Under the pieces are notes generated by a model, which made no database searches, was not told where the DNA came from, and worked only from the letters and a program-made list of their open reading frames with translations. 64,000 nucleotides of DNA, taken from the NCBI GenBank assembly GCA_039654915.1, contig CM077596.1:5084001-5148000 (forward strand), given 5' to 3'. Positions 2,801-64,000 of the stretch are shown piece by piece (position 1 is the stretch's first letter; the number at the start of each line of letters is the position of its first letter). Position numbers and translations under genes: made by a program. This DNA comes from Aquilaria yunnanensis. Lineage: Eukaryota; Streptophyta; Magnoliopsida; Malvales; Thymelaeaceae.

Positions 2801-2870
2801 TATTCCTTGTTACCACATTGGCCAAAGATAGCTCTGCTAGAGGTTGGATTGCAGCATGGTGTTGCTCAAG

Positions 2871-3575: not shown

Positions 3576-3604
3576 TGTTTTTTCAAAGATGTAAGTCTTT
3601 GATA

Positions 3605-3616
3605 GCTCTGATACCA
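3605..3616 (-). other. Primer-binding site (initiator Met tRNA type)
   Basis: The minus strand reads TGGTATCAGAGC, the classic copia primer-binding sequence complementary to the 3' end of initiator methionine tRNA. It abuts the inner end of the LTR and lies about 30 bases before the gag start at 3575. Confidence 0.85.
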
Positions 3617-3764
3617 TGAAAGACTTAATATTGCCGCACAAACACAGGCTGTACTTTATGTATATTTATACAAGATTTGTTGGTTTATAGTAGGATACAA
3701 ATACACGTAGAAATTGATGATAAGATAAGATAACTTTTATGCTAAGGTACTATTATCGCTAACA
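3617..3764 (-). repeat. 5' LTR of truncated copia element
   Basis: This 148-bp segment lies directly upstream (minus strand) of the primer-binding site. On the minus strand it begins TGTTAGCG and ends CTTTCA, the expected TG...CA ends. The outer end could be 3 bases further out (3767) because of an ACAACA repeat. The partner LTR is absent. Confidence 0.6.
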
Positions 3765-3767
3765 ACA

Positions 3768-4480
3768 TAATACCTTCATAAGGCTATGTTGAACATGCCA
3801 ACTGTCAAATTGAATGCACAAATGAAAAGTAAATCAACTCTTAATCATTATTAACATCCATAAACAATAGATAATATTCTATAATTGAAATTAACAATTA
3901 ATAAACCAACAGAAAAGGATATAATCTTGGGTGTTTGATTATTCCACTCTAGCGGAATGATGACAATCCCACGGCTTTCACCAGCATATGGAATAAAACA
4001 AGAAGCAACATAGAAAGAAAGCAGAATAGGGAATAAGAAATAACAGGAGACTCCTACTTTGTTGACACATTCATAGGCCCAAACGATATTAGCTCTAGCC
4101 CAGTTCATTTATCTTTAAATCAAACGGATTAATGTGTTTTTATCACATAAGCCCAACCCATGTCATAGACTGATAACCTTTGCCCCAAAGTTAAATAGAC
4201 ATTACAGTCCGCCCTCCATCCTTCGTATCTTGAGAAGCCTGAAGCTCATTCCGGTAAGATTCTAATTGGGTTTGTTTCAGTTGAAGTGCTTGATCTTTCT
4301 TCCAGAAATGCAATTGTTAATCTCTTCTTCAATAATCTAATGGGAACAAAGCAAATTAAAGTCATAATTCTTGTAATGATCATCCTATACATCTATCAAC
4401 AAAAAGAAACAGAGATGCCACAATAAAAATCAAGCAAAACACAGATCTAGAACACGACCACTAGTTCCAACAATGAAAGG
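3768..4480. other. Unassigned intergenic sequence
   Basis: A short minus-strand open frame (3851-4108) has hydrophobic stretches but no recognised motif and is probably chance. No repeat ends, RNA gene or conserved domain were recognised. Confidence 0.5.
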
Positions 4481-7585: not shown

Positions 7586-7597
7586 GTTGGTTGAGCT

Positions 7598-8137
7598 ATG
7601 GGAGACTTCTCCATTCAGATTAGCAGCAATCTCATCAACCGTCTCACCGAAGATGAAGAGAAGTCAAAGAGAAAAACAAAGAAAACTAAAACAAAGGTAT
7701 CACAAGAAAATAAAAGGTCACAGATCAAGAAAGATCAGAAACCGATTTCTGGAGAGTACCAGATAGGGGAGAATGTTGCTCCTAGATGGCCTGTTCAGCC
7801 ACCCGTTTTTCTGCCGGTAACTCCACCAACACACTCTATACAGGCAGAGATAGATGCAATTCAATCCACTCTTCGAGAAAGTGAAAAGATTGTGGACAAG
7901 TTGCAGAAACATGAGGAGACTATGGTGCAGGAAGTGACACGAAAAGCAAAAGGTCTGCATGATAAGGAGTTCAAGATACCTGATCCAAGGCCCATGCCTT
8001 GTTTGGCTGAGAGTGATGCTTGGAAGACATGCTACAAGGAGAACCAAAATGATGTCATGAGATGTGCTCCTTTGGCCAAAAATTTTGCTGATTGTGCTCG
8101 CAGAGTGAGGCAGCTTGTCAGTTCAGCTGATAAGTAG
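7598..8137 (+). CDS. Twin CX9C (CHCH) domain protein, MIC19/CHCHD3-like
   Basis: The 179-residue protein starts MGDFSIQISS, and the whole coding region is one exon. Residues about 20-55 are lysine-rich and disordered. Residues about 70-78 hold the proline-rich PPVFLPVTPP. A predicted helix (about 85-125, EIDAIQSTLRESEKIVDKLQ...) follows. The C-terminus (about 135-173) has two CX9C pairs, CLAESDAWKTC and CAPLAKNFADC, the hallmark of the coiled-coil-helix-coiled-coil-helix fold oxidised by the Mia40 pathway in the mitochondrial intermembrane space. The helix-plus-CHCH layout resembles MICOS subunit MIC19/CHCHD3, a role in cristae junctions, but this is inferred. The start is chosen because it follows directly after a good 3' splice site (CCCTAG at 7580-7585), so the 5' UTR is probably interrupted by an intron. 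A poly(A)-like AATAAA occurs near 8187. The gene looks intact. Confidence 0.9.
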   Translation: MGDFSIQISSNLINRLTEDEEKSKRKTKKTKTKVSQENKRSQIKKDQKPISGEYQIGENVAPRWPVQPPVFLPVTPPTHSIQAEIDAIQSTLRESEKIVDKLQKHEETMVQEVTRKAKGLHDKEFKIPDPRPMPCLAESDAWKTCYKENQNDVMRCAPLAKNFADCARRVRQLVSSADK

Positions 8138-12209: not shown

Positions 12210-15200
12210 TCAAGCAGCTAAGCTTTTCGAGGCAATCTCGAAAACATTCTCCGACAATCCATTAGTAGACATTATCATCTCCAGTTCGGCCTGCAAATTG
12301 TTCCATAGCTCCATATTTAATACAGTAACAGTAACAATCATCCAGAGGTGAGAGAAATCCAAACATTCGTGCATGACAAGCACATGATAATTTACCTTTG
12401 CAATGTTTTGCCTGCTCTCATCAAAGCGTCTCCACCTCGAAAAAGCTGACACCATACGGGAGGCTACCTGTGACCAATAAATGAATGAAGTTAGAAGATC
12501 CAACTGACGTGATCTCACAAATGACCATAATCTGTATGCCTCAACAAACCTGAGGATTTATTTTGTCAAGTTTTACCACAATTTCTCCCAAGAACTTGTA
12601 CCCTGACCCGTCTTTGGCATGGAAATTCACAGGAGATCCACAGAATCCTCCGATAAGTGAATATACCTATTTCAACAGCATAAACCACAGCCAAGGGAAA
12701 ATCAAGACAGAACTCAGCCAAACGCAATGGCATTTCTTCCAGAACAGATTAGTTGGAGAGAGAACTCTGGGGTTGATGCTAGGGTAAAAAAGAGAACCAC
12801 TTGCCTTATTTGGACTATAAAGGTCAAATGCAGGGTGATTCAGAAGCCTCCTGACATTCTCCACATTTCCAGGAATGTTGGACATTGCTTGCAATGCAAA
12901 CCATTTGTTCACAACCTAGGAAACAAGGGGAGAGAAAAGAGGGAAAGGAGGGGGGGGAGGGGAGGAAGCAAAAGTAAAGACAAAGGTAGGCATGTAGAAG
13001 GCTATTTATCAAGAAATGATGCTAACAGCCAGCTTTGCAGCAAGCAGCACTTCTTATTCAGTACGGGAGCTCACCAGGAAGTCATGCTGCCACTTGCTGT
13101 AGAAATCAGCCAGGATTTCATCACGAGTCTGCCCAGGGTTTTGGTCAATGGCAGCCAAAGCTGCAAACTGTTCAGTCATATTTGTAGCAGATTTATATTC
13201 GTGCAGGGCAAGCTCCACAACGTCTGGTTCCCCAAGTGATGCAAGATATGCTATAAAAGAAGCCCACGCAAAATCATTTACAGAAACTTGAGATCAACCT
13301 TTCAACGGATATAACAAAGCAACACAAACCAAGTGCAATATTCTTGAGAGAACGCCTGGCCATATTAGAATGGTCAAACACATAATCTTCTGAGCTCCTA
13401 TTGTTTAGCACCTATCATTTACAAAAGGGGTGAGCTCACCGGTCAAAGAAGCTATTTGAGTATGCCAAAGAATACCAAACTGATTAGCTCATCACATATA
13501 TAGTAATCAAACTAAGGAAGACTTACGGTGCTCATCAATTCTGCTTTCAATTGAGAAGCAAGCTCCTTCCTAATAAATGTCCGGACAGCATGAACTGCAT
13601 CAGGATCCGCAACCACCATCATGTCCATTATCTCTCCCTCACCAGGAAGAGTTATAGCCTTCGCGACAAATTCCTGAATATATCACATAAAGATAATTAA
13701 TACAATCAACTTCATTTAACCTTCAAATTTCTACACAAATGCTACTGAGTGGACAAGGTACAGAACCCCTATCATACTTTATCCAATGTTGTATCACACA
13801 GTATGCTTCTGAGGCCAGCCACAAAGCTTCTATTCAGAGACAATGGTTTGTTTTGTTGGAAATCAGAAACTAAGCTGAGCATCAGTTTTCTTGCCAACAC
13901 CTGGCCAGCCTCCCAACTGAAACACACACATGAGAAAAATAGAATCTCAATAATTAGCAACATTTTACCAGCCAGGTTAATAGTATTGGTCATTTGAGAC
14001 AAACATACCGATTGAACTCATCAGAATCATGTGCCAGGAGGAAAAACAAATCGCTGTCAGAAAGGTCAGTTTCAAGGCGGACAGGAGCACTATAACCTCG
14101 CAAAAGAGATGGAATTGGCTGCTCAGGAACATCAGCAAACACAAACTCTTGTTCTTTCTGCACAATACCAACACAACTGGATAATGTCTATACTGATTGT
14201 TTCAGCATAAACATGTAACATTAAGCACTTAATATCACTAGAACTTTATCTAAACTTTGTCACATCACAATACCAACACAACTGGATAATGTCTATACAG
14301 ATACGTTTCAGCATAAACATGTAACATTAAGCACATAACTTTATCTAAACTTTGTTGCATCTTCAAAAATTATCATTTTTTTTGTTTCTGTCAGCATTTG
14401 TTTGTGTTGAACATTCCTTTTTTATGGCCACACAATTGAAATTTCTTACTGATTGCCATTTTGTGGGAGTTTTAAATCTTTCTATTCTGTAATCATATTT
14501 CCAGCTATCAAGATTAAAACAACAATTAAGGCTAAGATTTTACACAGTTTAACACTATTAAAAATGATTTATTCTGCATTTCAAACTAGTTTCATAGTCA
14601 ATCTCTACCCATCAAGACATAAAAAAGAAAAGAATATAATGACAAAAAATGAAACAAAATATCACTTCCCATACCGCATATGAAAGAGTGCCTTTCTCAA
14701 AATTTTTCGTTGAAAACCTCAGCTATTTGTTGGAAGCAACCATCAATGAACTATAACTTAAGTTAGATCTCAACTATATCACACAGTTATTGTATAAAAT
14801 ATTAATATTATTATTTTTTCTTGTGAAATAATTTTATTGTATAAGACAATGGGCAGGGGCATGAATATTTGAAAGTGCGTCAGCCAGCAAATTTTGAGTT
14901 ACAACTATGAGGAGATTACTGATATAGAGGTAATTGAATTGAGTGATGAGGAAATTGGGGAAGGATGTAGTGAGTGGAGATTAAAGCTCGTCGGAACGGT
15001 GATCAGGACTGAAGTTTCAACTTATAATATGAGAAAATTTGTTCAATCACAGTGGAAACATGTATTAGTGCTGGCAGTGACAAAAATCCAGTCAGGTTGG
15101 TTCCTCTTTCGTTTTCATTCCAATGATGATATGATGAAGATACTAGAGGGACAAACGAATTTTGTTTTTGGTAAACCATTGTTGCTTAGGAAGTGGGAAA

Positions 15201-18200
15201 TGGAATGGATATGAAGCTGGAAAAAGAACTTTTTGATGTTACTCCAGTATGGGTTTGGTTGCCAGATCTGAAGCTTCAATACTGGAACCTAAAATCATGA
15301 GTAGGATTGTGAGCAAGATAGGGAAGCCTATACTTGCGGATTCTGCTACTGTGCATAAAACTAGGCCCTCTTATGCTAGAATTCTGGTGGATGTAGCACA
15401 AACAGATACTGTTAAGGATCAGGTCCTTTTGAAGAACCCAAGTGATGATCATGAAATACAACACGTCATATATGAGTGGTGGCCAAACCAGTGTGGTAAA
15501 TGCAAGATATGGAGGCGTCATGAGGAGGAATGTAATCCAGGTATGAGGAGACAAAGGGTGACAGAAGGAAAAGGAATACAGGAGGAGCAAGTTAAGGAGA
15601 TAATGCCTGCTTCCTTGGCGGGTATGGAGATTGCAAAACAGACAAATGTCCCCAGCACCAGTGGCACAAACGGTGATGAATTCCAAATGGTGCAGTCAAA
15701 GAAGGCCAAGTCTGAAGCTGGGTTCAGAAGACGCCAGGCTTTGGGGCAGAAGTGGCAGGACACAGCTGCAGAGAATAGGTGAAACAGAAGGGGCTAATAT
15801 TGGTTAATGCTTTGAGAAGCTCCAGGTGGATATGCAGAATGACTACATAGACAGGTATGAGGATGAAACTCTTTTCATTCTAACTTGATGATGTGGTGCT
15901 GCTGGAATGCTGATGTTCTGGAGGTTATATCTTTGCAATAAATGGGACGATTTGGCTGATTTGGGATGCTGATGTTCTGGAGGTTAAATATCTAGAAGCT
16001 TCAGATCAAGTGTTGCACAGTGAAGTGTGTCATAGAGTTGAGGATTGGACCTGCAAGCGATCTATTGCGTATGCTTCAAATGATGCCAAGGAAAGAAGAA
16101 TTTTAGGACAAAATTTGGAGAAATATGCATTGAATGGAGTAGGGCCTTGGATAGTTTCTGGATATTTTAATGAAATTATGTGCTCAGAGGAGAAATATGC
16201 TGCTTCTGGGTGATGGGTTGGCAGGCCTCTGGTCTTGTTGATTGCTGTAATATGGTTGGTTTCACTGATATTTGAAGTATTGGGGCATTTTTCACTTGAA
16301 GTAACAATCAGTAATTTGAGGACAGAGTGTGTTGTAAACTAGACCATGTGTTAAGTTTCCAAATGTGAAGATCGAGTTTAAACCAAAATGGTGCTCAGAC
16401 CTGTCTTTTATAGAAATTACAGAATGTGTTATTAGATGGTGTCATATCAACTATCTTCAAATGCGGCAGAGGCATCCATCCTACAATCAAATAGTGAGTG
16501 AAGTTTGGCAAGCAAATGCGGCTAGTGATAGCTGTGATATCTGGTGAAAGGTTTTGGGGAAGCTTAAAAGATTGAAGGAGTTGAAGAAGCTAAATTTTGG
16601 CTGTTAATCTCATATTTCTGGCAGACTTAAACTTAAGGAGCAGGAGCTAGAGCATATCCACCTTCAGTTGAGCAAAAACCTGGGGGAACAATCTTTACTT
16701 GTGACATGGCAGCAGACTCGAGCGTTGAGATGAAAGGCTGAGGAAGAGTTATATGAACAGAAGGCTGCTAGTGATTGGTTGAAACTTGGAGATGATAATA
16801 CTAAGTTTTTCCACTCCAAAACGAAGGAGAAAAATTCAAAAGCAAGCATCACATGTCTTTATGCCAGGTCAGGAAAAGGATTATCTCTTCAAGATGAAAT
16901 TAAAGAAGAGTTCCTTGATTTCTTTTATAATATCCTTGGTACTTCCAACCAAAAAATTATTGAGATTAATATCAACATTGTTTTGAATGGACCCAGGATC
17001 TCTGATGATCAGAGGAGATTGCCAGAGAGGGATTTTAAAGAAGAGGAGATAGTGAAGGCCGTTAAAGGGATAAATGCTAACAAAGCACCTTGTCCTGATG
17101 GATATACTGCTGGTATTTCCAGCATAATTTGGGAGCTAATAGGGTCAAATATATAAATTCTTTGAAACTGGTGATTTACCTTCTGCCCCTACTGCTACTG
17201 CTATTCATTTGCTGCCAAAGTATGCTCATGCGTCTTCTGCGAATGATTTCAGACCAATATCCTGCTGTTCTGTTTTTTATAAATTTATTTCCAAAATTCT
17301 TGCAAGTAGTAGGCATCAGGAGATTCTTCCTACTGTTGTGCATGAGAGTCAAGGGGCATTTATTAAACAGAGATATATTGCTGATAATATCTTGATTTGT
17401 CATGAGCTTGTGAGGGGTTACAATAGGGGAAAAATCAAGCCTAGGATGTGTTTGAAAATTGATTTGAGAAAAGCTTATGATATGTTGGAGTGAAGTTTTC
17501 TGGAGAATTTCCTGAATATGCTTGGTTTTCCTGACAACTGGGTGAACTAGCTAATGTGTGTTAGATCCCCGTATTTTTCTATTGTCCTTAATGGGACTCT
17601 CTGTGGTTACTTTAAAGGAAGAAGGGGGTGACATAGGGAGATACCCTCTCTCCCCTTTTTTTTTGGTGTTGGCCATGGATTACTTATCTAGGGCCCTGGG
17701 AGAGTTATTCGATGAGAAATATAGAGTATACCATCCAAAGTGTAAAAATGTTCAGCTCTCTCACCTCTGTTTAGGGATGATAAAATGATCTTTGCAAAGG
17801 GGGATGTTCAATCTGCAAGATCAATTAGGCATTGTCTGGATGTTTTCTCCAGAACAACAAGCCTTATAATTCCTTATGATTAATTATGATAAGAATCAAG
17901 TTTTTCTCAGGGGGTTGATGATGATGTAGAAAAGGAGATTATGTTGACTCTAAATATGATTAAGGGTATGCTGCCAATTAAGACTTTAGGGGTGCCTTTA
18001 GATGACCAGAGGCTGCAAATTAAACACTATAAACCCCTGGTAGAAAAGATTTTGCGAAATTTGAATGGCTGGTCCACAAAATATTTGACTTATGCTAGAA
18101 GAGTTCAGCTGATTAAAACAGTTATATTTAGTGTTCAAACTTATTGGTCAGCTATTTTTCCTATTCCAAAAACTGTTTTGGACCACATTGAGCAATGTTG

Positions 18201-20347
18201 CAGGGCATTTGTCTGGACGGATTCAATTACAAGAAGGAAACACCAAATTGCTTGGAGAAGGGTATGTGTGCCAAAGCATCAGGGAGTTCTTGGGATATTT
18301 AGCCTTTGTGAGTGGAAGACTACATCAAATGGAAAAAAGATGTGGAGATTAATGGTGGATAAGGAAAGCTTGTGGGTGAAACGGGTACATGCATATTATA
18401 TTAAGAGCACTGATATATGGCAGGTAAGTACAGCTAGTGATTCATCAGTGGTTTGGAAGCATATCCTTAAAGTGAGGGCTATTTTTGCTGATTGTATGCA
18501 TGATCAGGCGTGGGAATGTGTGAAAAATGGGAAGTTTCTTATGAAATTAGCATATCTTCATGCAGTGGAAAATTTTGAGACGGCTACATGGTACAGATTG
18601 GTGTGGAATTCGGGGCCTAAATTTTCCTTGGTTTACTGGTTTTCTATGTTGAATAAATTGCCTACTTTTGATAGATTGAAGCAGTATATTGAATTGTCTT
18701 CAGTGCTCAGTCTTCTATGTTTGGTGAAAAATGAACCTAGGGATCAATTTTTTTTTAAATGTGCCTATTCTCTGCTGGTTTGGAGAGACATTGTGTAAAA
18801 TTAAATTAAGGGATGCCCATAAGAGTGGACTCAGTTATAGGGGTGGATAAATAAGGTGGTGAAAGGAAAGAGTGTTAAATAAAGCTAGAGTGAGAAAAGC
18901 TTGTTTTGCTTGTATGGTATACTATATCTAGCAGGAGAGGGATGGAAAAATCCATCACCGTGGCAGAAGGCGTCTGGATGCGATCAGAGGTCTGATTGTT
19001 GATGCTATTCAACTTAGAATATGTATAAATATAAATGAGGTGTTTGGTTAGATTGTACTGCACTTGATTTTGCTGTGCAGCACAGGTGTTAGGCTTGCAC
19101 ATTTTCAGTTTATTTTGGTTTTTCCATTTCTCTTATTCAGGCCCCTGATCCTTTTGAGTGTAAGTGCAACTGACCCTTTTTATGAAATGAAATCTGCCCC
19201 CATCATGGTGTTTCCCCAAAAAAAAAAAAAAAATAGTAACCACACCCAACCCTAGAGTCTATAGCTTCCTAATTGTAACATTTCTTTCAAGCACATTACT
19301 TTAGAACTTTATATGAAACATTATCCTTTATAATACGGACTATAGAAATTCTATGCTGACCTTTGTTACTCTAAGAACAGTAGTGTAGACTGGCTGATCA
19401 TTTGCAACAGACTGCAGCTTGCCATCACAAAACACAGAGGACAGTGGAATGTCCTTCCCCTTGGAATCCAGCAGGCCAACTGCTACAGGAATGAACATGG
19501 GCTCTTTAATTGGCTGTCCTGGGGTTGGGGGGACCTCCTGGCTGTAAAATGTAAGATCATTTCACAATTTTATGGCCAGATTTCAGGCACAAAGAATCAC
19601 TTTCACAACAAATTTCTGAGAGATGCAAACCTGAACTTCAATGAAAACGTATGGGCTTCAGCATTGTAAGCTGAAGAAACTTTTACAAGGGGAGTACCAG
19701 CTTGGGAGTACCTGAAAGCTCCAAAAACTAAGCATCAAAGAAACCAGATAGAAGTGAACTGAAGAAGCAACAAATGCATACCAAAGCAAGAAATTAGCAA
19801 AATCTGCATCATTTGCATCACGCATGGCAGCAAAAAAGTCTTCACAGGTGACAGCCTGCCCATCATGCCTCCTAAAATAAAGATCCATCCCCTGGAAAAC
19901 ATCAAGTATATAGAATTGATCCAAATTCCAAAGCATCAATTTCACATAGAAGTTTCATTTCCTACAGCTATCAGGGCACAGTTTAAGGGCAGGAGAGGTT
20001 CTAAATCTTACTTTCCGGAAACCTTGACTCCCTAAGAGTGTTTTGTACATTCTGACAACCTCAGCTCCCTGAGATGGTGAACCATTGTGTCAGCAAATTA
20101 ACATGATTCCAACCATATAGAAGCAAGGAGCAAGGTTTTTCTTTTCTTCTTGCTCCTCTTGACAGAGAAGAACTAGAGGAGAGGGAACAAAGCAAGGGGT
20201 TGAGTGGAGTTATTTTTTACAGCAAAGCGAATAAGTCAAACCTTCTCATAAACCTGCAACATGAAAAGAAACAAAATGTGACATCAGGATTCTAACAGAC
20301 AATTCAACAATTGGTCAATTGAACTAACCCATCATAATAACACTAGC

Positions 20348-29937: not shown

Positions 29938-29952
29938 ACACTACCCTCTTTA
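29938..29952 (-). other. Tekay polypurine tract region
   Basis: The minus strand reads AAAGAGGGTAGTGT directly before the 3' LTR, the place and composition expected for the plus-strand DNA primer. Confidence 0.65.
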
Positions 29953-31276
29953 AGAATTTTGGTCCTCCAAATTTCCTAGGAGCTTTGGGAAGGCATCCGG
30001 ATAATTCTTACGCATTTCATCTTCAACCTCCCATGTTGCCTCCTCCTCAGAATGGTTAGTCCATTGGACTTTCACCATCGATATCCACTTACTCCTGAGC
30101 TTCCTAGTGTCCCTCGCCAATACCCAAATTGGTTCTTCCTTATATGTAAGATCTTGGGTAATGGGTACACTAGTGACATGTATTACTTGTTTAGGGTTGA
30201 AGACACACTTCTTTAACAAACTCACATGAAATTTGTCATGCACATGTCCTAGCTCAGGCGGTAGCTCTAACTTGTAAGCTACATTTCTTACTCTTACGAG
30301 TATTAGGTATGGTCCTACATACCTCGGGGCTAATTTTCCCTGCTTACCAAACCTCATTACTCCCTTCATAAGAGATACTTTCAACCATACTCGATCTCCT
30401 ACCTGGAACTCCAGGTCTCTTCTTTTCTTAAGGTTGACATATGATTCTTGCCTATTATTAGCAGCCTTAATCCTTTCCTGGATTAGCTTAATTTTCCCAG
30501 TAGTCTCTCTTATGAGTTCTGGGCCAATTTCCAACTTATCACCTGGCTCATGCTAGCAGTGTGGAGTTATGCACCTTCTTCCATAGAGGGCCTCATAAGG
30601 TGCCATGCCAATCATTGAGTGATGGCTATTATTGTACGAAAACTCCACTAAAGGCAAGTGTTTATCCCATTCTCCTTGGAAGTCAATAATACAACACCTC
30701 AACATATCTTCCAAGGTTTGAATGGTTCTTTTAGTCTATCCGTCCTTTTGAGGATGGTATGCAGAACTGAATTTTAACTTAATGCCCAAGGCATGGTGCA
30801 AGGACTTCCAGAATCTGGAAACAAATCTTGGGTCTCAATCCGAGACAATGTCGTCTGGTACACCATGTAGCCTTACTATCTCCTTAACATATTGTTGGGC
30901 TAACTTCTCCAGGGAATCTGTAAGGTTTATAGGCAAAAAATGGGCTACCTTAGTCAATCTGTCCACTATGACCCAGATTGTATTACTCTTTCTTCGGGTC
31001 AGTGGAAAACCCACTACAAAGTCCATGGATATGGATCCCCATTTTCTTTCTGGTATAGGTAAGCTCTATAATTTTCCTCCAGGTCTGGTGTTCCACTTTA
31101 ACTTGCTGACAGGTCATACACTTAGCCACAGAAGCACCAATCTCCTGCTTCATAGATGGCCACCAGAAATGGGATCTCAAATCCTTATACATTTTCTGAG
31201 CTCCAGGATGCATACTCATCAAGCTGGAGTAGGCTTCTTCTAGGATTTGTCGCCTGATTCCATCCTTATTTGGCAC
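29950..31276 (-). pseudogene. Tekay integrase and chromodomain-like tail, broken
   Basis: The zinc-binding part is at about 31150-31200 (FWWPSMKQEIGASVAKCMTC). The core starts near 31030 ([20 protein letters not shown], first catalytic Asp present) with a second Asp region [12 protein letters not shown] near 30840. A frame break follows. The 30534-29950 frame has the C-terminal domain (FQVGDRVWLKVSLMKGVMRF) and a chromodomain-like segment VQWTNHSEEEATWEVEDEM. Chromodomains of this lineage are thought to steer integration to particular chromatin. Confidence 0.92.
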
Positions 31277-31447
31277 ATAAATCCTATTCTAGAAATATAA
31301 TATTCCAGCCTTAAAGGAAAATCCTTGATACAATTTCTCTCATTTCTACCTAGAGATCCTAGGAATCTCCTCATCTTGAAGCTGAGCTTCCTGAATTAGG
31401 TCTTTCCATTCAGACCTAATAGTTAGGACCTGTACTTGGTCCATCTC

Positions 31448-33593
31448 CTAGTGTTTCCATTCCTGGGCCAATTCAGATAAATTGAGTACCTCTACCTCAG
31501 CAGGCTCTCCAGTGGCTTTAAGTATTCCCGTGTACTTCCTACTGAGAGCATCAGCTACCACATTGGCTTTCCCGGCCGTATACTCGATGACGCACTCAAA
31601 ATCTTTCAGGTACTCGAGCCATCTTCTTTGCCTCATGTTCAGGTCCTTTTGTGTAAATAGGTACCTTAGACTCTTGTGGTCTGTGAAGACTTGGAATCTG
31701 CCTCTCCAAGTAGGTAGTGCCTCCACTGCTTCAGAGCAAAGATCACTGCCACTAACTCCAGATCATGAACTAGATAATTCTTCTTATGAGGCCTTAGTTG
31801 CCTTGATCCATAGGCTATTGCTTGCTTCCCTTGCATTAAGACACAACCCAACCCTACTCTCGAAGCATCAGTATAAACTATATATTCCTTAGTAGGGTAT
31901 GGTAAAACCAGTATTGGGGTTGTAGTCAACTTTTCCTTAAGTTCTTGGAAGCTAGCCTCACATTGCTTACCCCACTCAAACTTTTGGTCCTTCCTTGTCA
32001 ATTGAGTGAGCGGAGTTGCTAGTATAGAGAATTTGGGCACAAATCTCCTGTAGTAGCCAGCAAGTCCTAGGAAGCTTCTTATGTCCCTCACAGTCTGAGG
32101 TTGCTTCCATTCCAAGACAGCTTTGATTTTCTCGAGATCAACAGCTAATCCATGCTCATTGATCACATGTCCGAGAAATCCAACTTCTTTAGCCCAGAAT
32201 TGGCACTTACTTAGTTTGCCATATAACTCGTGTTTCTTTAGCAGGCTTAGCACTACTCTTAGGTGCTCCTTATGGGCTTCTTCATCCTTTGAGTACACCA
32301 ATATGTCATCAATAAATACCACAACAAAGTAGTCCGGATAAGCCTTGAATACTCTTTGCATGAGGTCCATGAAAAAGGCTGCTGCATTAATGAGCCCAAA
32401 TGGTATCACTGTTTACTCAAAGTGACCATATCTGGTCTTAAAAGCTGTCTTTGAGACATCTTTTTTCCTGACTCTTAGCTGGAAGTATCTAGATCTGAGG
32501 TCTGTTTTGGAAAAGACCCTAGCTCCCTTTAACTGATCAAATAGATCCTCAATCCATGGGAGGGGTACTTATTCTTAATGGTCAGTGCATTGAGCTTCCT
32601 ATAGTCAACACACAACCTAAGGGTTCCATCTTTCTTCTTCACAAATAGTACAAGTGCTCCCAAGGGAGATGTACTTGGTCTTATGAAACCCTTCTCAAGC
32701 AACTCATCCAGTTGCTTTCTTAGCTCCGCCATTTCAGGAATAGCCATCCTGTAAGGAGCAATAGATGCTGGTGCAGCTCCTGGCACCAATTTGATCTCAA
32801 ACTCAACCTCTCTTGCAAAAGGGAGTCCTGGGAGATCAATGGGGAATACTTCAGGGAATTCTCTTATTATGGGTATTTTACCCAGCTCTATTTCCACTTC
32901 TATTCCATTTAACCCTAGGTATTCACCTTTTATTATTAGGGGTTTATGTTCCACCACTTTCAAAAGATTTTCTGGGACTACCCCAAATGATTTATCTAAA
33001 GATTGGGGTTTGTGTCTAGGCAGATAGAGTGGCCTGGCATGGTAGTCTATTACTACCCGGTTGGCACTAAGCCAGTTCATACCCAGTATGATATCATATC
33101 CATTAGTATCCAAGAATATCAGGTCGGCTCTAAGCTCTAGTTCACCTAGCCTAAGCATGCAATCTTTTACCATATGGTATGTTATCAAGACCTCATTCCT
33201 GGCAGTTTTAACCAGGTACATTTTATCCGTATTGCATATTTCTAGGTTCATATCTTTAACCAGCTTAAATGATACTATATATAAAGATGCACCAGTATTA
33301 AATAAAACTGATACTTCATAACCATTAATAATAATGGTACTTGTAAGAGTCTTCCTGACCAGCCCGGTCTGGTCCATTTCTTCCTCATCATCCCCAGCTC
33401 TGTTAACCGTTCGGTCCTCTCGTGCTTTCCCCGAAGTCTCAATCTGGAATACTCTTCCAGTAGCCTGAGCTTGTTTATTCCTACGCTGGGGCAGGCTAAG
33501 GCCCTGCTCCCTCCTTGGTGGTGGAGGTATATTGGGCCTCCTTATGGGCAATGGTCTCTGTGCCCATCTATTATTGAACCCTCCAGGGGTCAT
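31448..33593 (-). pseudogene. Tekay protease, reverse transcriptase and RNase H, broken
   Basis: The 33593-32529 frame holds the protease, whose active-site box reads LFNTGAS with Asn (AAT, complement of 33297-33299) where catalytic Asp is expected, then the start of reverse transcriptase with [21 protein letters not shown] frame break near 32410-32560 follows. The 32409-31666 frame carries the polymerase box [18 protein letters not shown] (both Asp kept) and the RNase H start ([14 protein letters not shown]). The 31726-31448 frame carries the RNase H end ([20 protein letters not shown]). Confidence 0.93.
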
Positions 33594-34983
33594 CTGATCC
33601 TCTCCCCTGACAGGGCAGTCTTTTACCCAGTGATCCTGGGCGCCGCATTTAAGGCATCTGAAAGTGAGCCTGTAGCATGCCTTTTGGCCATGGAATTTAC
33701 CACATGTTTCACATTATGGCCCGTAGGGGGATGTGGTCTTCATTCTTTTATCCTTTCTTGGCTCATATGCCAAGTTGTCTCTGCCTCTCTTTTTAGAAGG
33801 CTTTTGTAGTCTACTGGTACTCCTAGGGCCAATCATGGCTTGCCCCCTGAACTCTTGCTCTAAGTCCATAGCCTTCTGTACAATGTCATGGTATTTGTCG
33901 ACTCCTACTGCTCTAAGTATTTGCCTCAGCTCTGGCCTAAGTCCCCGAAGGAACCTCTTGGCCTTTAGGTCCTCTCGATCATCGTACTGCGGTGCATATC
34001 ATATGAGGTTACTGAACCTCTGTTTGTATTCCAGTACTGTGAGCCCTTTCTGCTCAAGCAGGTCAAATTCAACCTACTTCTGGTCTTTTAGTGCTTCACT
34101 GAAGTACTGTTGATGAAACACTTGTTGGAATTCGGCCCATCTCATTGCTCTTCTCCTTTGAGTGGGCCGCCTAGCATTTTTGCTAGCATATGTCCTGTGC
34201 ATTGCTCTCCACCAAAACTCAGCATTTCCTTCTAGTTTGAAGGTTGCCAATAAGACCTTCTGATAAGAGGAAACATCCATCCTCTCAAAGATCTTTTCAA
34301 TATGATTTACCCAGAATTTTGCTTCATCTGGGTTACAGCTTCCTTTAAATGTTGGGGGTCTTAGGGCAAGGAACCCCTCCAGTTGGCCTTCTCTTAGGCC
34401 TCTAGCATTATCCATATTGGGCCTCCCTCTTTGGGCCCTCACTGCTCCAGTGGTAACAGTGAGTTGGGCAGGCCCATAAATATCTTCTATGTCCAGCTGC
34501 ATCTGGACTTTTTTCTTCTTCTTCCTTCAGTTCTTGCTTAATCTCAGATCTTATTCTTCTGGCTCTAGGGTTTCTCCTTTCCTCGTCCTCATCATCGCCA
34601 TTTTCACTGGCTTGATCATTGAGTATAGGTTCTTTTCCTGGCCTCCTTCTCATTGGTGGCTCTCTTTGTTGCCCAGCAGGTTCTAGGACTTGGGTTGGAC
34701 CCCTTACCAGGATTTGCATGCTAGTTGCTAATTGGGCCATAGTGGCCTGCATAGCTTCCATCATTGCTTCCATTCTTGCTTCTTTTTTTTCCCGGGCATC
34801 AATGCTAAGCCCAGTAACAGTAGCCCTTATGGGCTCAAAAGGCTTGACTTGGGCCTCTAGCACAAAGCCAGCATTTTCATTCCCCTGATGGCAAGTTTCA
34901 TTTCCATTTCGGCCTTGGTTCGTATTTCTGGTTCTCATCCTGTAATTAACAACAAGCAAGGCACACAATTGCTCAATATTCAT
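33594..34983 (-). pseudogene. Tekay gag with CCHC zinc knuckle, frameshifted
   Basis: The frame opens at 34983 (MNIEQLCALL...). A retrotransposon gag domain follows in another frame from 34502 to 34074 (FLALRPPTFKGSCNPDEAKF). A zinc knuckle [14 protein letters not shown] (CX2CX4HX4C) lies at about 33620-33665. The two gag frames overlap at 34408-34502, so a frameshift separates the acidic N-terminal part from the capsid-like part. Gag assembles the particle and binds element RNA. Confidence 0.9.
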
Positions 34984-35070
34984 AAATATTCATTAGTGGA
35001 CTTAACCTATGTGGGAACAAGTCTATACTAATAATCATAGACCAAAACTTTGGTCCTTAAGAGCAACTGT

Positions 35071-54958: not shown

Positions 54959-55357
54959 GGTCACTACTAGAAAAACCGCATTTAGCGACGGCTGGCCGCC
55001 ACTAATCATGATATAGCGACGGCAGACCGTCGCTAAAATACCCGTTGCTAATTCACTCGCCGCTAATTAGCAACAGCTAAACGTCGCAAAACAGGCCGTC
55101 ACAAATTTTCCGGTAACGGTGCCTGTCGGCGCGTAGCCGTCGTTACTTAGTGATGCGTAACCGTCGCTAGTTAGTGCTAGTTAGTGACGAATAGCCGTCG
55201 CTAGTTAGTGACGCGTAACCATCGCTAGTTAGTGCTAGTTAGTGATGTGTAGCCGTCACTAGTTAGTGACACATAGACGTTGCTAGTTAGTGACGCGTAG
55301 CCGTCGCTAGTTAGTGACGCATAACCGTCGCTAGTTAGTGCCAATTAGTGACGCGTA

Positions 55358-56659
55358 TGAAGATTTCAGGATATTATGATAACATACTTTTATGTTATCT
55401 ACTCATGTATATGCCACATGCATATTTGTTCATTTGAATTCAACATGGATATAGGCATGCATAACATGTTATATAACATATCAAGATCACATACATGTTG
55501 TGTTAAATAAATCCTAGCATGCTACTAAGAACATACATAAGAAATGAAACCTGACATGCTACTAAACCAAGAAAAGATGTGCACCTTTCTTCATGGTTAT
55601 CTTTGGCGAAAACTTGAGGGAGAACTTGATCTTAGAGAAGCACCATGAAGCTTGAAATAGAGCTCTATGTAAATCCACCCACAATGCTCTCAAAAAGTGT
55701 TTAATATTTCGGCCTCTAAAGGAAATAGGAGGAGAATAATTTTCTCTCAAGAAACTGGAGCAAATGGACTGCCAAATTCGTGCTTCAAATGGCCAGCCAC
55801 TAAAGGCTATTTATAGATGACCAAAAGGCACACCTTTACACCAAGAAAGGTGTCTTTTAAGCCAAAGAACACTTCCTTTGGCTAAGGGTCATGTATGGTG
55901 GCGAAAATACATGTCTTTTAGCCAAGGAACACTTCCTTTGGCCTATAACCACCCCATAACTACCTTATGGGCGAAAATACATGTCTCTTGATGTCAAAAG
56001 ACATCATTCTTGGTGCAATAACCACCCCAACCACCTCATGGCCGAATATACATGTCTATTCACTCAAGGAACACTTCCTTTGGATGAAAGGACATATTCT
56101 TTTAGTCAATAGTCAACTCTTTTGATGAAGAGACATACCTTTACACAAAAGATGTGTCTCTTGGTGGTTTTGAGCTAAAAGCAAGGTGAGCTGGCACAAA
56201 GCTAGCTCACTATACTACTTATGCACCATTGAGCTCCTTTGAGCTCCAACCAAGCACCATGAACTGAGGTCCAGCTCCTAGAGTTGACCTGGAGCTGGAG
56301 TTAGCTGTTCTCAGCTGAAGTGAACTGAAGTCCAGCTACACTCAGCTACCAAAAGCTGAAGTGAGCTGACTTGAGCTAACTTGAGCTGACTTGAGCTAAC
56401 TTGAGCTGAAGTCCTACTACTTTGAGCTACTTATAGCTGAAGTAAGCTGACTTGAGCTGAAGTCTAGCTACATTCAGCTACCAGAAGCTGAAGTGAGCTG
56501 ACTTGAGCTGACTTGAGCTAACTTGAGCTGAAGTCCAGCTACTTTGAGCTACTTATAGGAGCTACTTCTAGCTGCCTTAAATAGCTATTCAAGCTAGAGT
56601 TAGCTCAATGAGCTCAAATCCTATCTTAAAAGGATCTTGGTGCACCAAGAATTCCAACA
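55358..56659 (-). mobile_element. Solo LTR inserted in the CACTA left array
   Basis: A 1302-base block with TG...CA ends: on the minus strand it starts TGTTGGAATTCTTGG and ends AAATCTTCA, typical of copia LTRs. The repeat array stops at its left edge and resumes at its right edge. A short GTA direct repeat flanks it. No partner LTR or genes. Confidence 0.7.
56170..56600. repeat. AGCT-based minisatellite in the solo LTR
   Basis: Repeated TTGAGCTGAC/TTGAGCTAAC and AGCTGAAGTGAGCTGAC units in irregular higher-order blocks. AGCT is self-complementary, so the block is dense in small palindromes. Confidence 0.85.
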
Positions 56660-58062
56660 GTATAGCCGTCGCTAGTCAGTGATGCTTAACCGTCGCTAGT
56701 TAGTTCTAGTTAGTGACGCGTGGCCTTTGCTAGTTAGTGACGCGTAGCCGTTGCTAATAACTAGTAAAAATTTCAAAATTTTAGTACTAATTAACGACAG
56801 CTAAACGTCGCAAACTAGACCGTCATAACTTTTCCGGTAACGGCATCGGCCGGCACGTTAGTGACGCTTACACGTCGCTATCTAGTGACGCTTAGGCATC
56901 GCTAGTTAGTGACGCATAACCGTCGCTAGTTAGTGGCTCATAATTGTCGCTAGTTAGTGTAGTTAATGACTCGTAGCCGTTGCTAGTTAGTGACACATAA
57001 CTGTCACTAGTTAGTGACTCGTAGCCGTTGCTAGTTAGTGTAGTTAGTGACGCGTAGACGTCGCTAGTTAGTGACGCATAGCCGTTACTAGTTAGTGAGT
57101 TAGTGACGCATAGCCTTCGCTAGTTAGTATAGCAATTTTTGACTTAAATTGAGGTGATTACGGAATGGAGTTCAAGTTCTAAGTTTGTCGCTTTGGATTC
57201 GAATAACTTGTTTTTGCAATATTGTCATCGATTTCACACAAATGCAACAACTAGGGTATTGAAGTATTTTTCATTAATACAAAATATGATTAACATAATG
57301 TCATGTCATGTCATTCGACAATTAAAATACATAAGGTTACAATTTCCTTTACAAGATAAAAACTGAGCTCAAATTCATCGTACCGCAGGATCGAGCACAA
57401 GATTCTTCAGGCAAGATCATGAAAACAACAATGAACCTCCCCTTCCCTCAATCTACAAGAAGATAAATATTTTAATCAGCCAAAGGAACATAAATTTATT
57501 AAATAAAAAAAAAGGTAAATACAACTCTAAGTTAAGATTTTAGGGAAGAAAAATTAATGAGCAAATAGACTCAAATAAACAGCCATAGAGGGAGGTGGGG
57601 AACTGTTCAATCTGTTCAATATCGGCACAAAAGGCATGCATAAAATCAATAGTTAGACAAGTATATTTGAAAAAGTTAGCTGAGATCCATAGTGTATTCT
57701 GTGACAATTGATGACTGCTTGCTCTAAATTTTGGTGCAAAAACCCTTAGAGATTCAGCTACTAATAGTTTAACGATTTGGTCATGTACAAAACTAAATCA
57801 AACCAAGCAGGCTAAAGAAACCCTTGAATGTAAACAACACCACACTAGGCAAAAAAACATAGTAGATGCTCAACACTAATCTTCTTGGGTTGTTGCACAA
57901 CATTAAGGAAGGCCTAGAATTTGCCAATATTTCCAACAAGACAATTCAAGAAACTTCTAAATGGGTTCAAAGAACTCCTCAACCATAACAAGCCATAAAC
58001 TTCTGCAATAGGCAAACAGTCAAATTTAATAGTAACAAGCACTATAAGATAGAGCAAACAAC

Positions 58063-60515
58063 CTTCCATTCTGAAACAAACATTGGGCCTCGAAGTAGAA
58101 ACAGTTGCAAAGCGTCGGAAGCTATATGCTGCTCTAACTTCCTGCAGAAGTCCCAAAGAGTCCATTGGTAATTCAAAATTACTAATTCTTACTGTAAAAT
58201 AAAAAAATAAAAAAAAAACTCTAAAAAACATGCAGCAACTCTGAATTAAAAAAAAAGTACTTTTATCTCAGACCATACAAAGTGACAAGGACAGAAAGCG
58301 ACTCAAACCAAAGAAAGTTTGTCATGTGCTCATATTCCACAAACGTACCCAATTTATTGAAGATAAAACCACCCCTATGCTTTACCTTTTTTTCAATAAA
58401 GCAACATAAAATTAGGTACTGTGATAATGAAATTTCCTCTTCTATCTACATCACACCAAATGATGAACAACAACAAAACTAAAGAAATATACAAATGTAT
58501 TTGCTTGCAAACTAGGGTATATAAATATTTTGATACTCAAATGGTTAAGTTCAAGCATTGTATACCATTTGAAGCACGATGCTCACAGCAACCCCCCCTA
58601 AAAGGATCAACAGGAAAACACCAATCTCTGATATCAACTATAAAAAGACACAAAAAAGAGCATCTTATCAAAAAAGGTAAAAATGATTTCATGCACACAT
58701 CCAAATGTTCAAGCTAAAAATGATATTTTAAATTTCTGAAAATAGCACACTAGTAATTTTCACTTTAATATCCCAACAATTCAATAACACGAACTAAAAG
58801 ATCATGATACAATCACCACACTGTAACACCCCTGCAGATTTGATGAGTACTTAGACACAGTTGTTAATTATCGAGGAATGCATGACCAAACTTCTTATGA
58901 AGATTATGAAGCCCCAAACATGCTCATGTTAGTTTACAAGAAGTTTGTTGACTGAAAAAAAAAAAGCTAAATAATGTAGAGTAAAAGGAGTGACCACCTC
59001 GCCATTCCCAGTCATGAATGAGCCTGAACCTTCAAGTGTTGGTAACAGTAGTGATAGTACATCCATTGGTGCTCTGTCAATATCCTAAAAAACAACCCAT
59101 AATCCATCCAGAACAGCCTGTAACATAACATAATTTGTAATTCACAGAGTAAATGTATTAAAATGTAGAATAAACTTATCTCTTTCAAGAACAAGCTATT
59201 ACCTAGGTTAGAAATCCTGGCTGCCATCTAAATTCACCGGGTTGCTCAGCACAAACATAGCTTCCAACCAAAGTTTTCCCATCAATTTGATCATCCACGT
59301 GAATAGAAAGAACTGCAGGGATGAGCAAAGCAAAGACTGAGAATACAGCAAAGCATGGAAGCATGAATGAGAAAAGGAAAGCTAGAAATATAGATAATCT
59401 ACTGAAACATCGGATGTTACTTCACATGGAAATACTATGATATGATGAACAAACATCACTCAAGCTCCCCAGCATGGAGATATCATAAAAATTTCCATCA
59501 AAATGGACACAATACAACAATTTAGAAGACATGAAAGTTTGGATACATAAAAACAAACATACAAACAAGGCTTGACCATAGCTCAAGTGTTTCAAGCCAT
59601 ATTTCTCCTTTCCTTTACAGTTCACCATGCCAAAGATATAAAGAGATGGTCAACAATGAGTTGCTTTTTATTCAATTTGAGGCAAACATAAGACATAGAA
59701 TATACACATAAGAATCACAGTGTAATTAAACGTGCTACATAGGCATTCCACAATAGAAGCTGAAACACCATATGTGAAAACCAAGTACATAAGTTGATAG
59801 GAAGCAACTATTAGACTCCCCATTACTCACATCTTGAATCACTCAATGAATTCACAATTCTCATCTTCAGAGTGGAGCCATGCAGTACTAGGCATGAGCT
59901 ACATCAATGTGACAATAGGGGTACACACCAGGAACAGGCCTTGCAAGTGCCATAAAAGATTTTCACAGTATGTAGCCACAATAGCATAATTAAAACTATT
60001 ATTACAATTTACAAAGTTATCTGCAGCAAATGATTCTATCCCAAACCAAACTGTCTAGTCATGCCACACAAAAGATAGAAAAGACAGATATGTATACTAG
60101 TCATAAAATACCTTGATTTCCACTCTCTTGAGCCATTTTGCTGATCAAAGCAGATAGCTTTCCATTTTCAAACTTCATTTCACCTTGATCCGATGACCCA
60201 AGATATGCACCAGCTCTTTCTGCTGTAGTGTCCTGACAGAAATCATCCCAGCTAAAAATGACGAATTAAAAAAATTAAATTAAATTAAATAGGGAATGCA
60301 AACAGTTCATTCCTCTGAAAATAATAGGCATGGAAGCAACACCAACCGCAAAAAACACGAATGTGCTTCTTCTGCGCCAATACCAAAATTTTCAACTGAG
60401 TTGTCACCAAAATCCAAGATTACAGTCATTATTTGGACAACACACCACCTTACATCCACCATATCTTTTACCTCAACATCACTGCTTGGATCAAAATATA
60501 CAAACTTGTTTACAA
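58063..60515 (-). pseudogene. MDN1: Captured midasin (MDN1) gene fragment, five exons
   Basis: Midasin is the giant AAA-type ATPase that removes assembly factors from pre-60S ribosomes in the nucleus. Exons on the minus strand: about 60515-60347 (DVRWCVVQIMTVIL...), 60251-60112 (WDDFCQD... to ...MAQESGNQ), 59312-59203 (DDQIDGKTLVGSYVC, EQPGEFRWQP), 59117-58998 (DIDRAPMDVLSLLLPTLEG), 58141-58063 (FRRFATVSTSRP). Introns with GT/AG ends remain and phases join correctly, so the copy came from genomic DNA. The second exon appears internally deleted: about 90 residues normally found here, including the first Walker A glycine loop, are missing. TAG stops end exon 3 (where Gln is expected) and interrupt exon 4 (WVVF-stop-DID, where Glu is expected). 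Only a small part of the first AAA region is present. Confidence 0.85.
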
Positions 60516-61034
60516 AGTTGAACAAACAAGACCAATCCTAGAGTTTGGAGAAGGCTTCTGGTTCCACCATGAGAAGGCGGTAAGATACCCAGAGAGAATG
60601 CAAGTGTCTGGCAATGACCTTCCAAGAAAAAGAACAAGCAGTGGGAAAAAGGAACAAAGTTGTCATCCCCAATACAAATATCAAGTTCAATCAGCTTTAA
60701 CTCAATTAGCTGTTTCTGTCACCAATGGATAAACATATTATACCACTAGGACTTCTTGGAAACTGCCCTACCTTCACTCCGAAATAAAACAAAAAATGCC
60801 TCCAAAGAATCTAAAATTAACAATAAAAATAATAAACCCAAGAAACAAAGCAAGAAAATTGAATAGCTGGTTCAACTTGAGACAGGAGGCCGCTTGGGTT
60901 CCATGTCCAAATCGCCATCTATGGTTCCTTTCTTACTGCTGTTGCTGCTGCTGCAATCTGCAAGGAAAAAAACCAAGAATCGCCGCCCATGACAAAATCA
61001 AAGAAACAAACAAGTTTATGCTCGAGAAATATAC

Positions 61035-61184
61035 CTGGAAGACCGCAAGCACAACAAAATGCTCCAACTTCTGAGCTAGTTGATGCCATAGCTTTCTCTA
61101 GTACAGATCTGCGAGGTTATTGTACCACTCAGCTAGCTGGGGATGTTGGTTACGGCGAGAATCGAGATACTGAAGAGCCGCCAT
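61035..61184 (-). pseudogene. RPN9: Captured RPN9 (26S proteasome lid subunit) first exon
   Basis: RPN9 (PSMD13) is a lid subunit of the 26S proteasome. The minus-strand exon opens with the ATG at 61182-61184 and encodes 50 codons: MAALQYLDSRRNQHPQLAEW, then YNNLADLY, a TAG stop where Gln is expected, then RKLWHQLAQKLEHFVVLAVF and Q, ending at a GTATAT donor. Apart from the stop it matches the N-terminus of plant RPN9. Sequence to about 61270 is probably its 5' leader. No further RPN9 exon was found; the next coding pieces downstream are midasin exons in the same direction. Confidence 0.85.
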
Positions 61185-61299
61185 GGTCGAATAAAAAACT
61201 GGGCAGATCAAGAGGAAACAGAAGCCATCAGTGCGAAGGTGGGAGCAGTCGCGCAGACGTCTAAAACAGGACATCACTTCTGCGTTAAAAGATAATGAA

Positions 61300-62765
61300 A
61301 CATAATGTAAGTGACGGCTTACTGTCGCTTAAAACTAGCGACTTCTGGCCGTCACAAACATATTACACCTCCTAATCCACTATTACTATTTTTGGGATTT
61401 TGTTAAGTTTAATGACGATAACCGTCACTAAATAATTAATATAATTTTCATTAAATAGATTATTTGTTAATTACTCAAAAAATATTTAGAGATTTGTATG
61501 CTTAATTAATCAGATTAAAAATTATAATTATACAATTATAATGTTAGCGACGCATAACCGTCACTAAATTAACGACTTTAAGCCGTCACTAAATTAGCGA
61601 CGGTAAGCCGTCACTAATGTTAGCGATGCATAATCGTCACTAAATTAGCGACTTTAAGCCGTTACTAAAATTTAGTGACGCATAACCCTCACTAAATTAG
61701 CGACGGTAAGCCGTCACTAATGTTAGCGACGAATAACCGTCACTAAATTAGCGACTTTAAGCCGTCACTAAAATTTAGTTATGCATAACCGTCACTAAAT
61801 TAGCGACGGTAAGCCGTCACTAACGTTAGTGACGCATAACCGTCACTAAATTAGGGACTTTAAGCCGTTAGTAACTTTAGTGACGCATAATCGTCACTTA
61901 TTTAGCGAAGATAACCAACCACAAACTTTAGCGACGTTTAACATTCACTAAATTTGCAACGGTAAATTGTCACATAGAGCCCGATGAAACTTTAGCGACG
62001 GATATCAGTTCCTACATAGCAGCAACAAACTAATTGGGTTGAAAAGTCTGCAGAAGTTAAACTACGTGTCATGATATTTTACGCATGCGCATGCATTCGT
62101 TGTGTATTAATATTTTTTTTTATTATTCTGTTCCTTTAAACAAAGTTGTTTGTTATAATGGTAAAGATACAGAAACTTGTTGGATAGAAGGGTCTCAATA
62201 ACGTAAATAAAATTCGTATAATCTTAAAATTGTTTCGTGAGGAAAAAAATATCTACAATCTAAATACATTTGTATTATATCAACTGAAATAATTTATGTT
62301 GTGTGAGAATTTGAGACGTCACACAATTTTCAGCTATAATATTTATATTTTTCTAGTAGTGTATTCAAAAGCAATTATTTATGTTCAATGAGATAACAAT
62401 TTATTATAAAAAATGACAGCCACATGAGAACCCAAATTTTTTTTTATTTATTTTTTTTAGTTTAGCGACGGTCAACCGTCACTAAATTAGCGATGATACG
62501 CAGTCGCTAATTTTAGCGACGGCCAACCGTCACTAAATTAGTGACGGTACGCCGTCACTAATTTTAGTGACGGCCAACCATCACTAAGTTAGCAACGGTA
62601 CGCCGTTGCTAACTTTAGCGATGCGTAACCGTAACTAATTTAGCGATGGTAAACCATTACTAAAATTTAGCGACTAACAGCCGTCACTAAAGTCTCACCG
62701 GAATATTATCGACTATTAACCGTCGCTAATTAGCGACGATTTCTTGCCGTCGCTAATTAGACTGT
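61300..62765. repeat. Right subterminal repeat array of the CACTA element
   Basis: Arrays at about 61310-61990 and 62460-62765 of units like TTAGCGACGGTAAGCCGTCACTAA, separated by AT-rich sequence (62000-62455). The unit dialect differs from the left array (GTCACTAAATTAGCGAC rather than GTCGCTAGTTAGTGACG). Inside the AT-rich spacer, at 62348-62361, lies a second CACTA-type end TTTTTCTAGTAGTG. Confidence 0.9.
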
Positions 62766-62794
62766 CGCTAAATTTGAATTTTCTTGTGGTGGGT

Positions 62795-63340: not shown

Positions 63341-64000
63341 CTACTCCAATTCAATGCACTGCTTATTCTGAGAGCAAATCAACACATTAGAGCCGGGAAC
63401 CTTCAGAGATTCATGCCCAAAACTGCCACTTACGCATCCAAACTCTTCTTCATCATCATCACTGTCGATCTCCCAAGGAGTAACACGGTTCTGATAACTT
63501 CGGCGCTTGATAAGAAACACATTGAAGTAATAGCTCACGAGGTCTTGTTTCTTCTTCTCGGGAAAACACTTCAAAGAATCAGCCCGGAAGAGTTTATTTA
63601 AAGATTCGGAGTTTAATCTTATCATGTTCTTAAACCTCTTTTCCTCCTCGAACGTCCACCGCAGTGACACTTCCTCTCCCATTTGGCTAAATCTCCAATG
63701 ATAGAATACTGGACCTAGTTCAAGCTTCAATTTCATCCTTTTTTCAGCAATGTGAAATCGAACACATTCGACAGAACCTGGAACCCTACAGCCACATGAA
63801 GCAGGTCTTCCCCTACCAATCAGGTCTATTTGAGTTGATGGATCATTCTCTCCAAAGTCTAGGTGCCAGTCACATGTGCCTAGCCACTTTGAATCAGAAT
63901 GTGAACTCATCCCAGTCCATTCAGGGACATTGGCTTGAAAGAGTCGTCCAACACAAGGCTGCCTTCTAGGGAAACGGTCTCCAGACTGCTTTCCCTTCCT
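63341..64000 (-). CDS. ELM2/SANT C-terminal part of an ARID-type nuclear protein (partial)
   Basis: The frame is open from the window edge to a stop at 63341, giving the last 219 residues. The first 30 visible residues include VGRLFQANVPEWTG, the ELM2-type motif. Then come SDSKWLGT, GRGRPASCGCRVPGSVECVR and FHIAEKRMKLKLELG, a conserved block of plant ARID1/ARID2-like proteins. A SANT/Myb-like segment follows (VSLRWTFEEEKRFKNMIRLN ... DLVSYYFNVFLIKRRSYQNR), then an acidic DSDDDEEEFG. Such proteins are nuclear and bind chromatin or DNA; the ARID domain itself would be upstream, outside the window. An ATG at 63908-63910 lies inside the conserved region and is not the start. Looks intact; residues after PGSN are less familiar. 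Confidence 0.88.
   Translation of the reverse strand, partial: RKGKQSGDRFPRRQPCVGRLFQANVPEWTGMSSHSDSKWLGTCDWHLDFGENDPSTQIDLIGRGRPASCGCRVPGSVECVRFHIAEKRMKLKLELGPVFYHWRFSQMGEEVSLRWTFEEEKRFKNMIRLNSESLNKLFRADSLKCFPEKKKQDLVSYYFNVFLIKRRSYQNRVTPWEIDSDDDEEEFGCVSGSFGHESLKVPGSNVLICSQNKQCIELE

Follow-up and report, generated by a model that had tools for sequence, protein, structure and literature searches.

Results

Structure of the element

The window analysed here is a 64,000-nucleotide stretch of the Aquilaria yunnanensis genome (contig C4, positions 5084001-5148000). At window positions 54962-62791 it holds a CACTA element that carries pieces of two host genes, MDN1 (midasin) and RPN9. An initial annotation, made from the letters alone, had described CACTA ends, a 3-bp GGT duplication and subterminal arrays at this place. 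This description was borne out by comparison of the two ends, by the flanks, by the repeat arrays and by the number of end sites in the genome. The features are collected in Table 1.

Table 1. Features of the CACTA element and its cargo (positions in the window)
Feature	Positions	Strand	Basis or remark
Target site duplication GGT, left copy	54959..54961	.	Flank reading
Left terminal inverted repeat CACTACTAGAAAAACCGCATTTAGCGAC	54962..54989	+	End comparison
Left subterminal array, about 24-bp units such as TTAGTGACGCGTAGCCGTCGCTAG	55123..57132	.	Broken by nested repeat 55358-56659
Nested 1302-bp dispersed repeat TG...CA	55358..56659	-	Flanks GCGTA/GTATA, without exact duplication
Family left core (core5)	57140..57581	.	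Common to many related elements; left border is the query edge, not measured
MDN1 N-terminal-part genomic fragment with introns	57577..60808	-	Native MDN1 (L039) 800-3400 (96.0%) and 3816-4472 (97.1%)
MDN1 exon F	58063..58141	-	Alignment to native gene
MDN1 exon E, TAG for Glu	58998..59117	-	Alignment to native gene
MDN1 exon D, TAG for Gln at last codon	59203..59312	-	Alignment to native gene
Fused MDN1 exons B and C; the 420-bp deletion takes out Walker A and leaves the frame intact	60112..60251	-	Alignment to native gene
MDN1 exon A, TAG for Trp	60347..60618	-	Alignment to native gene
Piece X, third cargo source	60805..60958	-	Elsewhere at L049 (89%) and L050 (85%)
RPN9 genomic fragment: about 25 bp of leader, exon 1 and the start of intron 1	60952..61209	-	93% to native RPN9 (L048)
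RPN9 exon 1, ATG to VFQ, GTATAT donor, TAG at Gln29	61035..61184	-	Structure-chain match and native gene
Family right core (core3)	61196..61300	.	Genome search and block comparison
Right subterminal array, units like TTAGCGACGG..CCGTCACTAA	61308..62790	.	Spacer at about 62030-62457
Internal perfect CACTA end	62348..62361	-	Counterparts in L051/L052 have one mismatch
Right terminal inverted repeat CACCACAAGAAAATTCAAATTTAGCGAC	62764..62791	-	End comparison
Target site duplication GGT, right copy	62792..62794	.	Flank reading

The left end is a perfect CACTACTAGAAAAA and the right end reads CACCACAAGAAAAT, a CACCA-type variant, with 22 of 28 bases identical between the terminal repeats. In the 842-Mb assembly, to which all genome-wide counts refer, there are 603 exact CACTACTAGAAAAA sites (315+288) versus 13 (9+4) for a control made of the same letters reversed, the query being the first 14 bases of the left end. 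Two other elements with both ends have 3-bp duplications of their own, TTT (L041) and CTA (L040). Terminal repeats, a 3-bp duplication, arrays on both sides (with periods of about 24 bp on the left and about 51 bp on the right) and dispersed copies that carry these ends and arms are the features of the CACTA (En/Spm) superfamily. The Pack-CACTA type is seen in the cargo, which comes from host genes with separate parental loci and was copied as DNA, with introns present.

The longest stop-to-stop frame within the element has 127 amino acids. Six frames, a subset of all that included the element's four frames of at least 110 amino acids, gave no Pfam match at E 0.01.

The left spacer was considered as a captured gene and rejected, being a dispersed 1302-bp repeat with full-length copies at 85-95% identity among the 40 scored of 2130 genome candidates; it was not found in the other element loci compared. 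We read it as a probable solo long terminal repeat (LTR), or LTR-like sequence, inserted into the left array, presumably of copia type from its TGTTGGAATT start. As for the internal CACTA end, it may be what remains of an earlier event in which elements were nested or joined. Termination of the element at this internal TAGTG (62361) was rejected, as the flanks, GGT and TAT, disagree.

The MDN1 cargo

The midasin exons have their best match in Midasin 6or5_A (E=1.1e-15), and match a partial plant midasin at 64% identity. The native MDN1 was found at a separate locus (L039, on C8), where the Walker A exon is intact and has further exons to either side, and where no stretch matches the arrays of the element. 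Alignment to this gene shows that the surviving GT donors and AG acceptors of the six native exons are all kept. The initial annotation had proposed one RPN9 exon followed by five midasin exons in one direction. The exons and their direction hold, but one of the five is in fact two native exons, fused through the loss of 420 bp. Its proposal that both genes were captured at the DNA level agrees with the kept introns and with the alignments to the native genes (identities in Table 1).

The RPN9 piece and piece X

The best solved-structure match of RPN9 exon 1 is 8amz_O, residues 1-50 (E=2.3e-18), listed as a “PCI domain-containing protein”, which we take to be spinach RPN9. Chains named PSMD13/RPN9 match weakly (E 0.006-0.008) and Pfam PSD13_N scores 26.9 with a cut-off of 27, 0.1 bit short. 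The identity is made firm by the separate native locus L048 on C3, where exons 1 and 2 were found: its exon 2 matches 8amz_O at 6e-87 and the named PSMD13/RPN9 chains at about 1e-17. The element copy is 93% identical to the native gene.

When the genome was searched for 60805-61300, with all 14 of the 14 candidates scored, the RPN9 block proved to be a mosaic of X, RPN9 and core3, so that its reading as a single piece was rejected. The expected cargo of RPN9 and MDN1 is therefore present, with the correction that the RPN9 block is composite and that a third piece, X, stands between the two genes. Piece X extends 417 bp further in L040. The combination of X and RPN9 is found in four other loci (L040, L026, L042 and L043). 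These full-length matches were considered as native genes and rejected, since all continue into CACTA arrays. An older capture of RPN9 than of MDN1, suspected from the 93% identity, was dropped, as L026 is only about 2.8% from the native gene by tree path. A frame at L049 was considered as COQ6 and rejected, as PDB searches gave this identity no support.

Relatives in the genome

Further copies, for which the initial annotation had proposed a genome search, are abundant. In a first search, with 57140-61300 as query, 40 of the 171 candidates were scored, so that its counts are lower bounds. The MDN1 census was made with 6 kb of the native gene as query and all 28 of 28 candidates scored. It yielded the native gene and 25 loci, this element included, with one 35-bp match left uncounted. 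Therefore, 24 loci besides this element hold pieces of the same MDN1 stretch, next to the four with X and RPN9. All MDN1 pieces in elements fall inside L039 350-4472, with 2817-4472 present solely in this element; in the same complete scoring, L039 1-349 and 4473-6000 have no other match in the genome.

In 22 of the 25 loci, the MDN1 piece has the family left core no more than about 2 kb away. L023 is a 23rd, where the core is reached only across a 12-kb insertion, and the count leaves out two 160-bp loci (C1:30692628 and C2:29493462). Among the loci found by these searches, MDN1 and X with RPN9 occur together in this element only, and L040, L026, L042 and L043 have no MDN1 match in the 9 kb around them.

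In terms of divergence, seven copies of the L039 800-2262 stretch share 17 differences from the native gene (15 by a stricter count), and have 11-18 private changes each. Six of the seven share 5 more differences, which this element lacks, and other MDN1 types share some of the 17. To judge from these patterns, the MDN1 copies seem to have spread in a burst from a single source, from which this element would have branched off first, and a single MDN1 capture is favoured. Changes of the C>T/G>A kind make up 63 of the 114 private changes of the seven copies and 39 of the 89 differences between the element and native MDN1. This excess suggests the mark of methylated copies.

A separate observation concerns six sister elements (L041 3411-4911 and L011-L016), in which a block of up to 1.5 kb follows the MDN1 breakpoint at 2262.

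Coding state of the exons

If spliced together, RPN9 exon 1 and MDN1 exons A-F would form one 290-codon frame with four TAG stops. The join of RPN9 to MDN1 could have been open at birth and is not coding now; the earlier view that stops argue against a protein thus stands. Substitutions relative to native MDN1 number 24 in 721 exon positions and 64 in 2504 non-exon positions, and the exon changes are 19 nonsynonymous (3 of them stops) and 5 synonymous. With exon divergence not below intron divergence, the best reading is that the exons would be decaying neutrally as passengers.

These figures bear directly on whether the element could be a young chimeric RPN9-midasin gene under selection. Such a gene would account for the common frame of 290 codons, open apart from the stops, and for a fusion of exons B and C that keeps the frame. 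Any new join, though, keeps the frame by chance 1 time in 3, and the four stops, the 19:5 ratio, the exon divergence, the deleted Walker A and the failure of the genome searches to find a second locus with both gene pieces all speak against it. We consider a selected gene barely credible.

Possible RNA from the element

On the same strand, 550 bp from the element and pointing into it, a host coding region has its stop at 63341. This minus-strand region (63341-64000) is the open C-terminal part of a host gene; it gave no Pfam match, and presumably resembles a plant ARID/ELM2 protein. RNA from the element, if any, would come from its right arm or from read-through of this gene. It could splice at the kept GT/AG sites and would then meet stops early. 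A transcript starting at the RPN9 leader, as first proposed, is weakened as an idea: only about 25 bp upstream of the ATG align with native RPN9, most of them also common to the family right core, so that no RPN9 promoter came along and RPN9-driven transcription is unlikely.

The same evidence bears on the proposal that element RNA yields small interfering RNAs (siRNAs) that would act in trans on native MDN1 and RPN9. Perfect 24-mers are shared with native MDN1 in 1594 of 3650 windows (244 of 817 exonic) and with RPN9 exon 1 in 17 of 127, the splice sites are kept, and the host coding region is near on the same strand. Against this stand the short RPN9 leader and the 24 other MDN1-bearing loci, which leave this copy nothing special for MDN1. 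Since the two genes are essential, selection would also be expected to remove any strong silencing of them. We find this role very unlikely. A wider version holds that a single large ancestral Pack-CACTA, with pieces from three or more sources, namely G (a further block, described below), MDN1 and X-RPN9, in one direction and RPN9 and MDN1 exons of matching splice phase, spread in a burst, and that its copies still feed 24-nt siRNAs. If true, the surviving copies would adjust MDN1 and RPN9 in trans; we judge it more improbable still.

Assembly and spread of the element

Taken together, the interval 54962-62791 is most probably a non-autonomous Pack-CACTA whose exons are passenger cargo. We put this at roughly 85%, a figure that covers what kind of element this is and its role as a passenger carrier, and not how the join came about. 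The element would have been mobilised by a transposase supplied in trans. MDN1 and X-RPN9 would each have entered the CACTA family once and then spread, and the captured pieces would have been trimmed through internal deletions at short microhomologies. Overlaps at the joins, read by eye, are 5 bp at core5|MDN1, 4 bp at MDN1|X, 4 bp at X|RPN9, 15 bp at RPN9|core3 and 2 bp at the internal deletion.

As for how MDN1 met X, the join may derive from one large ancestor, ordered core5-Z'-Z-G-MDN1-X-RPN9-core3, or from fusion of two elements. Block order was compared in 19 loci, of which L052 has one block only, while L037 and L024 are one and the same element. L023 and L028 (C6) are very likely one element, with Z pieces that continue each other and CAGAT/CAAAT flanks. 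The order core5, Z', Z, G, MDN1, X, RPN9, core3 and its orientation fit in 17 of 17 cases (16 distinct multi-block relatives and the window), with the limits that many relatives have neighbouring blocks only, that they were picked by their match to this element and that most were seen with 1.5-kb flanks. Block G (L040 2513-2970) is common to L022, L023, L024, L029 and L051; it lies about 70 bp from MDN1 in L022, L023, L024 and L029, and abuts X in L040. We give about even odds to one large multi-gene ancestor that may have been reduced by internal deletions, with later exchange of arms.

Two side results belong here. Block G was considered as a TFIIIC subunit and rejected, as it had no support in PDB searches, and two block-G frames had no Pfam match. 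Between L028 2327 and L023 856, a 12.1-kb LTR-element-like insertion (TGTTAG...CCCATCA) seems to split a Pack-CACTA relative.

Fusion of two neighbouring CACTA elements, one of the MDN1 type and one of the X-RPN9 type, is a serious contender, which we hold only tentatively and at somewhat under even odds. It is the model described for Arabidopsis Pack-CACTA elements in the part of PMC8903248 drawn on here. Relatives with MDN1 only and with X-RPN9 only were both found, with no further locus that has both, and the MDN1|X junction has its 4-bp overlap. On C7 an X-RPN9 element (31785550, minus) and an MDN1 element (31795184, plus) lie about 9 kb apart; such neighbours do occur, but this pair is oppositely oriented. 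The internal CACTA end at 62361 could be what is left of a joined element, yet it sits in the right arm, away from the MDN1|X junction. As expected from a single ancestor, block order and orientation are the same throughout the 16 relatives and the window, yet none of these relatives has MDN1 together with X.

Several observations weigh against the account of a Pack-CACTA element assembled by single captures and trimming. The right terminus is CACCA instead of CACTA. MDN1 meets X only in the window element, so that the collinearity of the relatives does not test the MDN1|X order. The right arm (61640-62587) matches L051 at 92%, better than it matches the X-RPN9 elements, which indicates that exchange between elements also happened. 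The RPN9 tree places the native gene among the elements, though this position is weakly supported. The shared MDN1 differences, counted relative to the native gene alone, may also fit repeated captures; 15 of them on the stem do not clearly show a bias towards deamination (5 G>A, no C>T), so that part of them could have arisen in the native gene.

MDN1 pieces at 25 loci, with exact breakpoints, microhomologies and a native gene for comparison, allow capture, trimming and spread to be ordered. The order of such steps is rarely legible, and the element is a fairly clear record of assembly and trimming, in which two models of cargo joining can be set against each other. Moreover, exon models in this genome that resemble MDN1 or RPN9 can be cargo of transposons, a warning for annotation.

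Other features in the window

A single-exon CHCH/MICOS-like host gene lies at 7595-8137 (plus strand), with its best named relatives in Malvaceae at 61-67% identity. Broken Ty3-type retrotransposon pieces occupy 29950-34989 (minus), with gag, protease, reverse transcriptase and RNase H by Pfam for 31666-34526. LINE-like pieces are found at 14873-18798 (plus), with a zf-RVT match at 17893-18798. Finally, Copia-type gag and Pol_BBD pieces lie at 2307-3665 (minus), and between them a match to the snoRNA family snoZ247 (2876-3014, 41.4 bits with a gathering score of 38).

Comparison with known systems

Capture by Pack-CACTA elements is already known, and this element is a new example of it. Gene fragments captured at the DNA level are also found in Pack-MULEs, a different superfamily with MULE ends and 9-bp duplications.

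One close parallel is soybean Tgm-Express1 (the wp allele), which, in the excerpted text of PMC1947982, has five gene fragments and a chimeric spliced RNA. Both are CACTA elements with intron-containing fragments of several unrelated host genes, and exons retained as splicable units. In that same text Tgm-Express1 is located within an intron and was shown to give chimeric RNAs that start at the F3H promoter, whereas the present element is situated 550 bp beyond a host coding region and is known from DNA alone.

According to the portion of PMC5105172 used, Tpn1 elements of Ipomoea nil swap their interior for host genes, with some of the cargo transcribed. They too form a large CACTA family, mostly non-autonomous, with captured host DNA inside conserved ends. 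The family and the genes differ, and the present case offers a set of sub-fragments, all from one MDN1 stretch, for comparison with the native gene.

Lastly, maize Pack-TYPE elements often carry coding DNA from more than one locus, Pack-CACTA the most, as stated in the sections of PMC8903248 available. The present element resembles the Pack-CACTA and Pack-TYPE elements of Arabidopsis, rice and maize described there in being non-autonomous, in keeping its ends and in having cargo from more than one locus. In contrast to the fusion of neighbouring insertions modelled in those sections, internal deletion of a larger ancestor would be an equally good account here.

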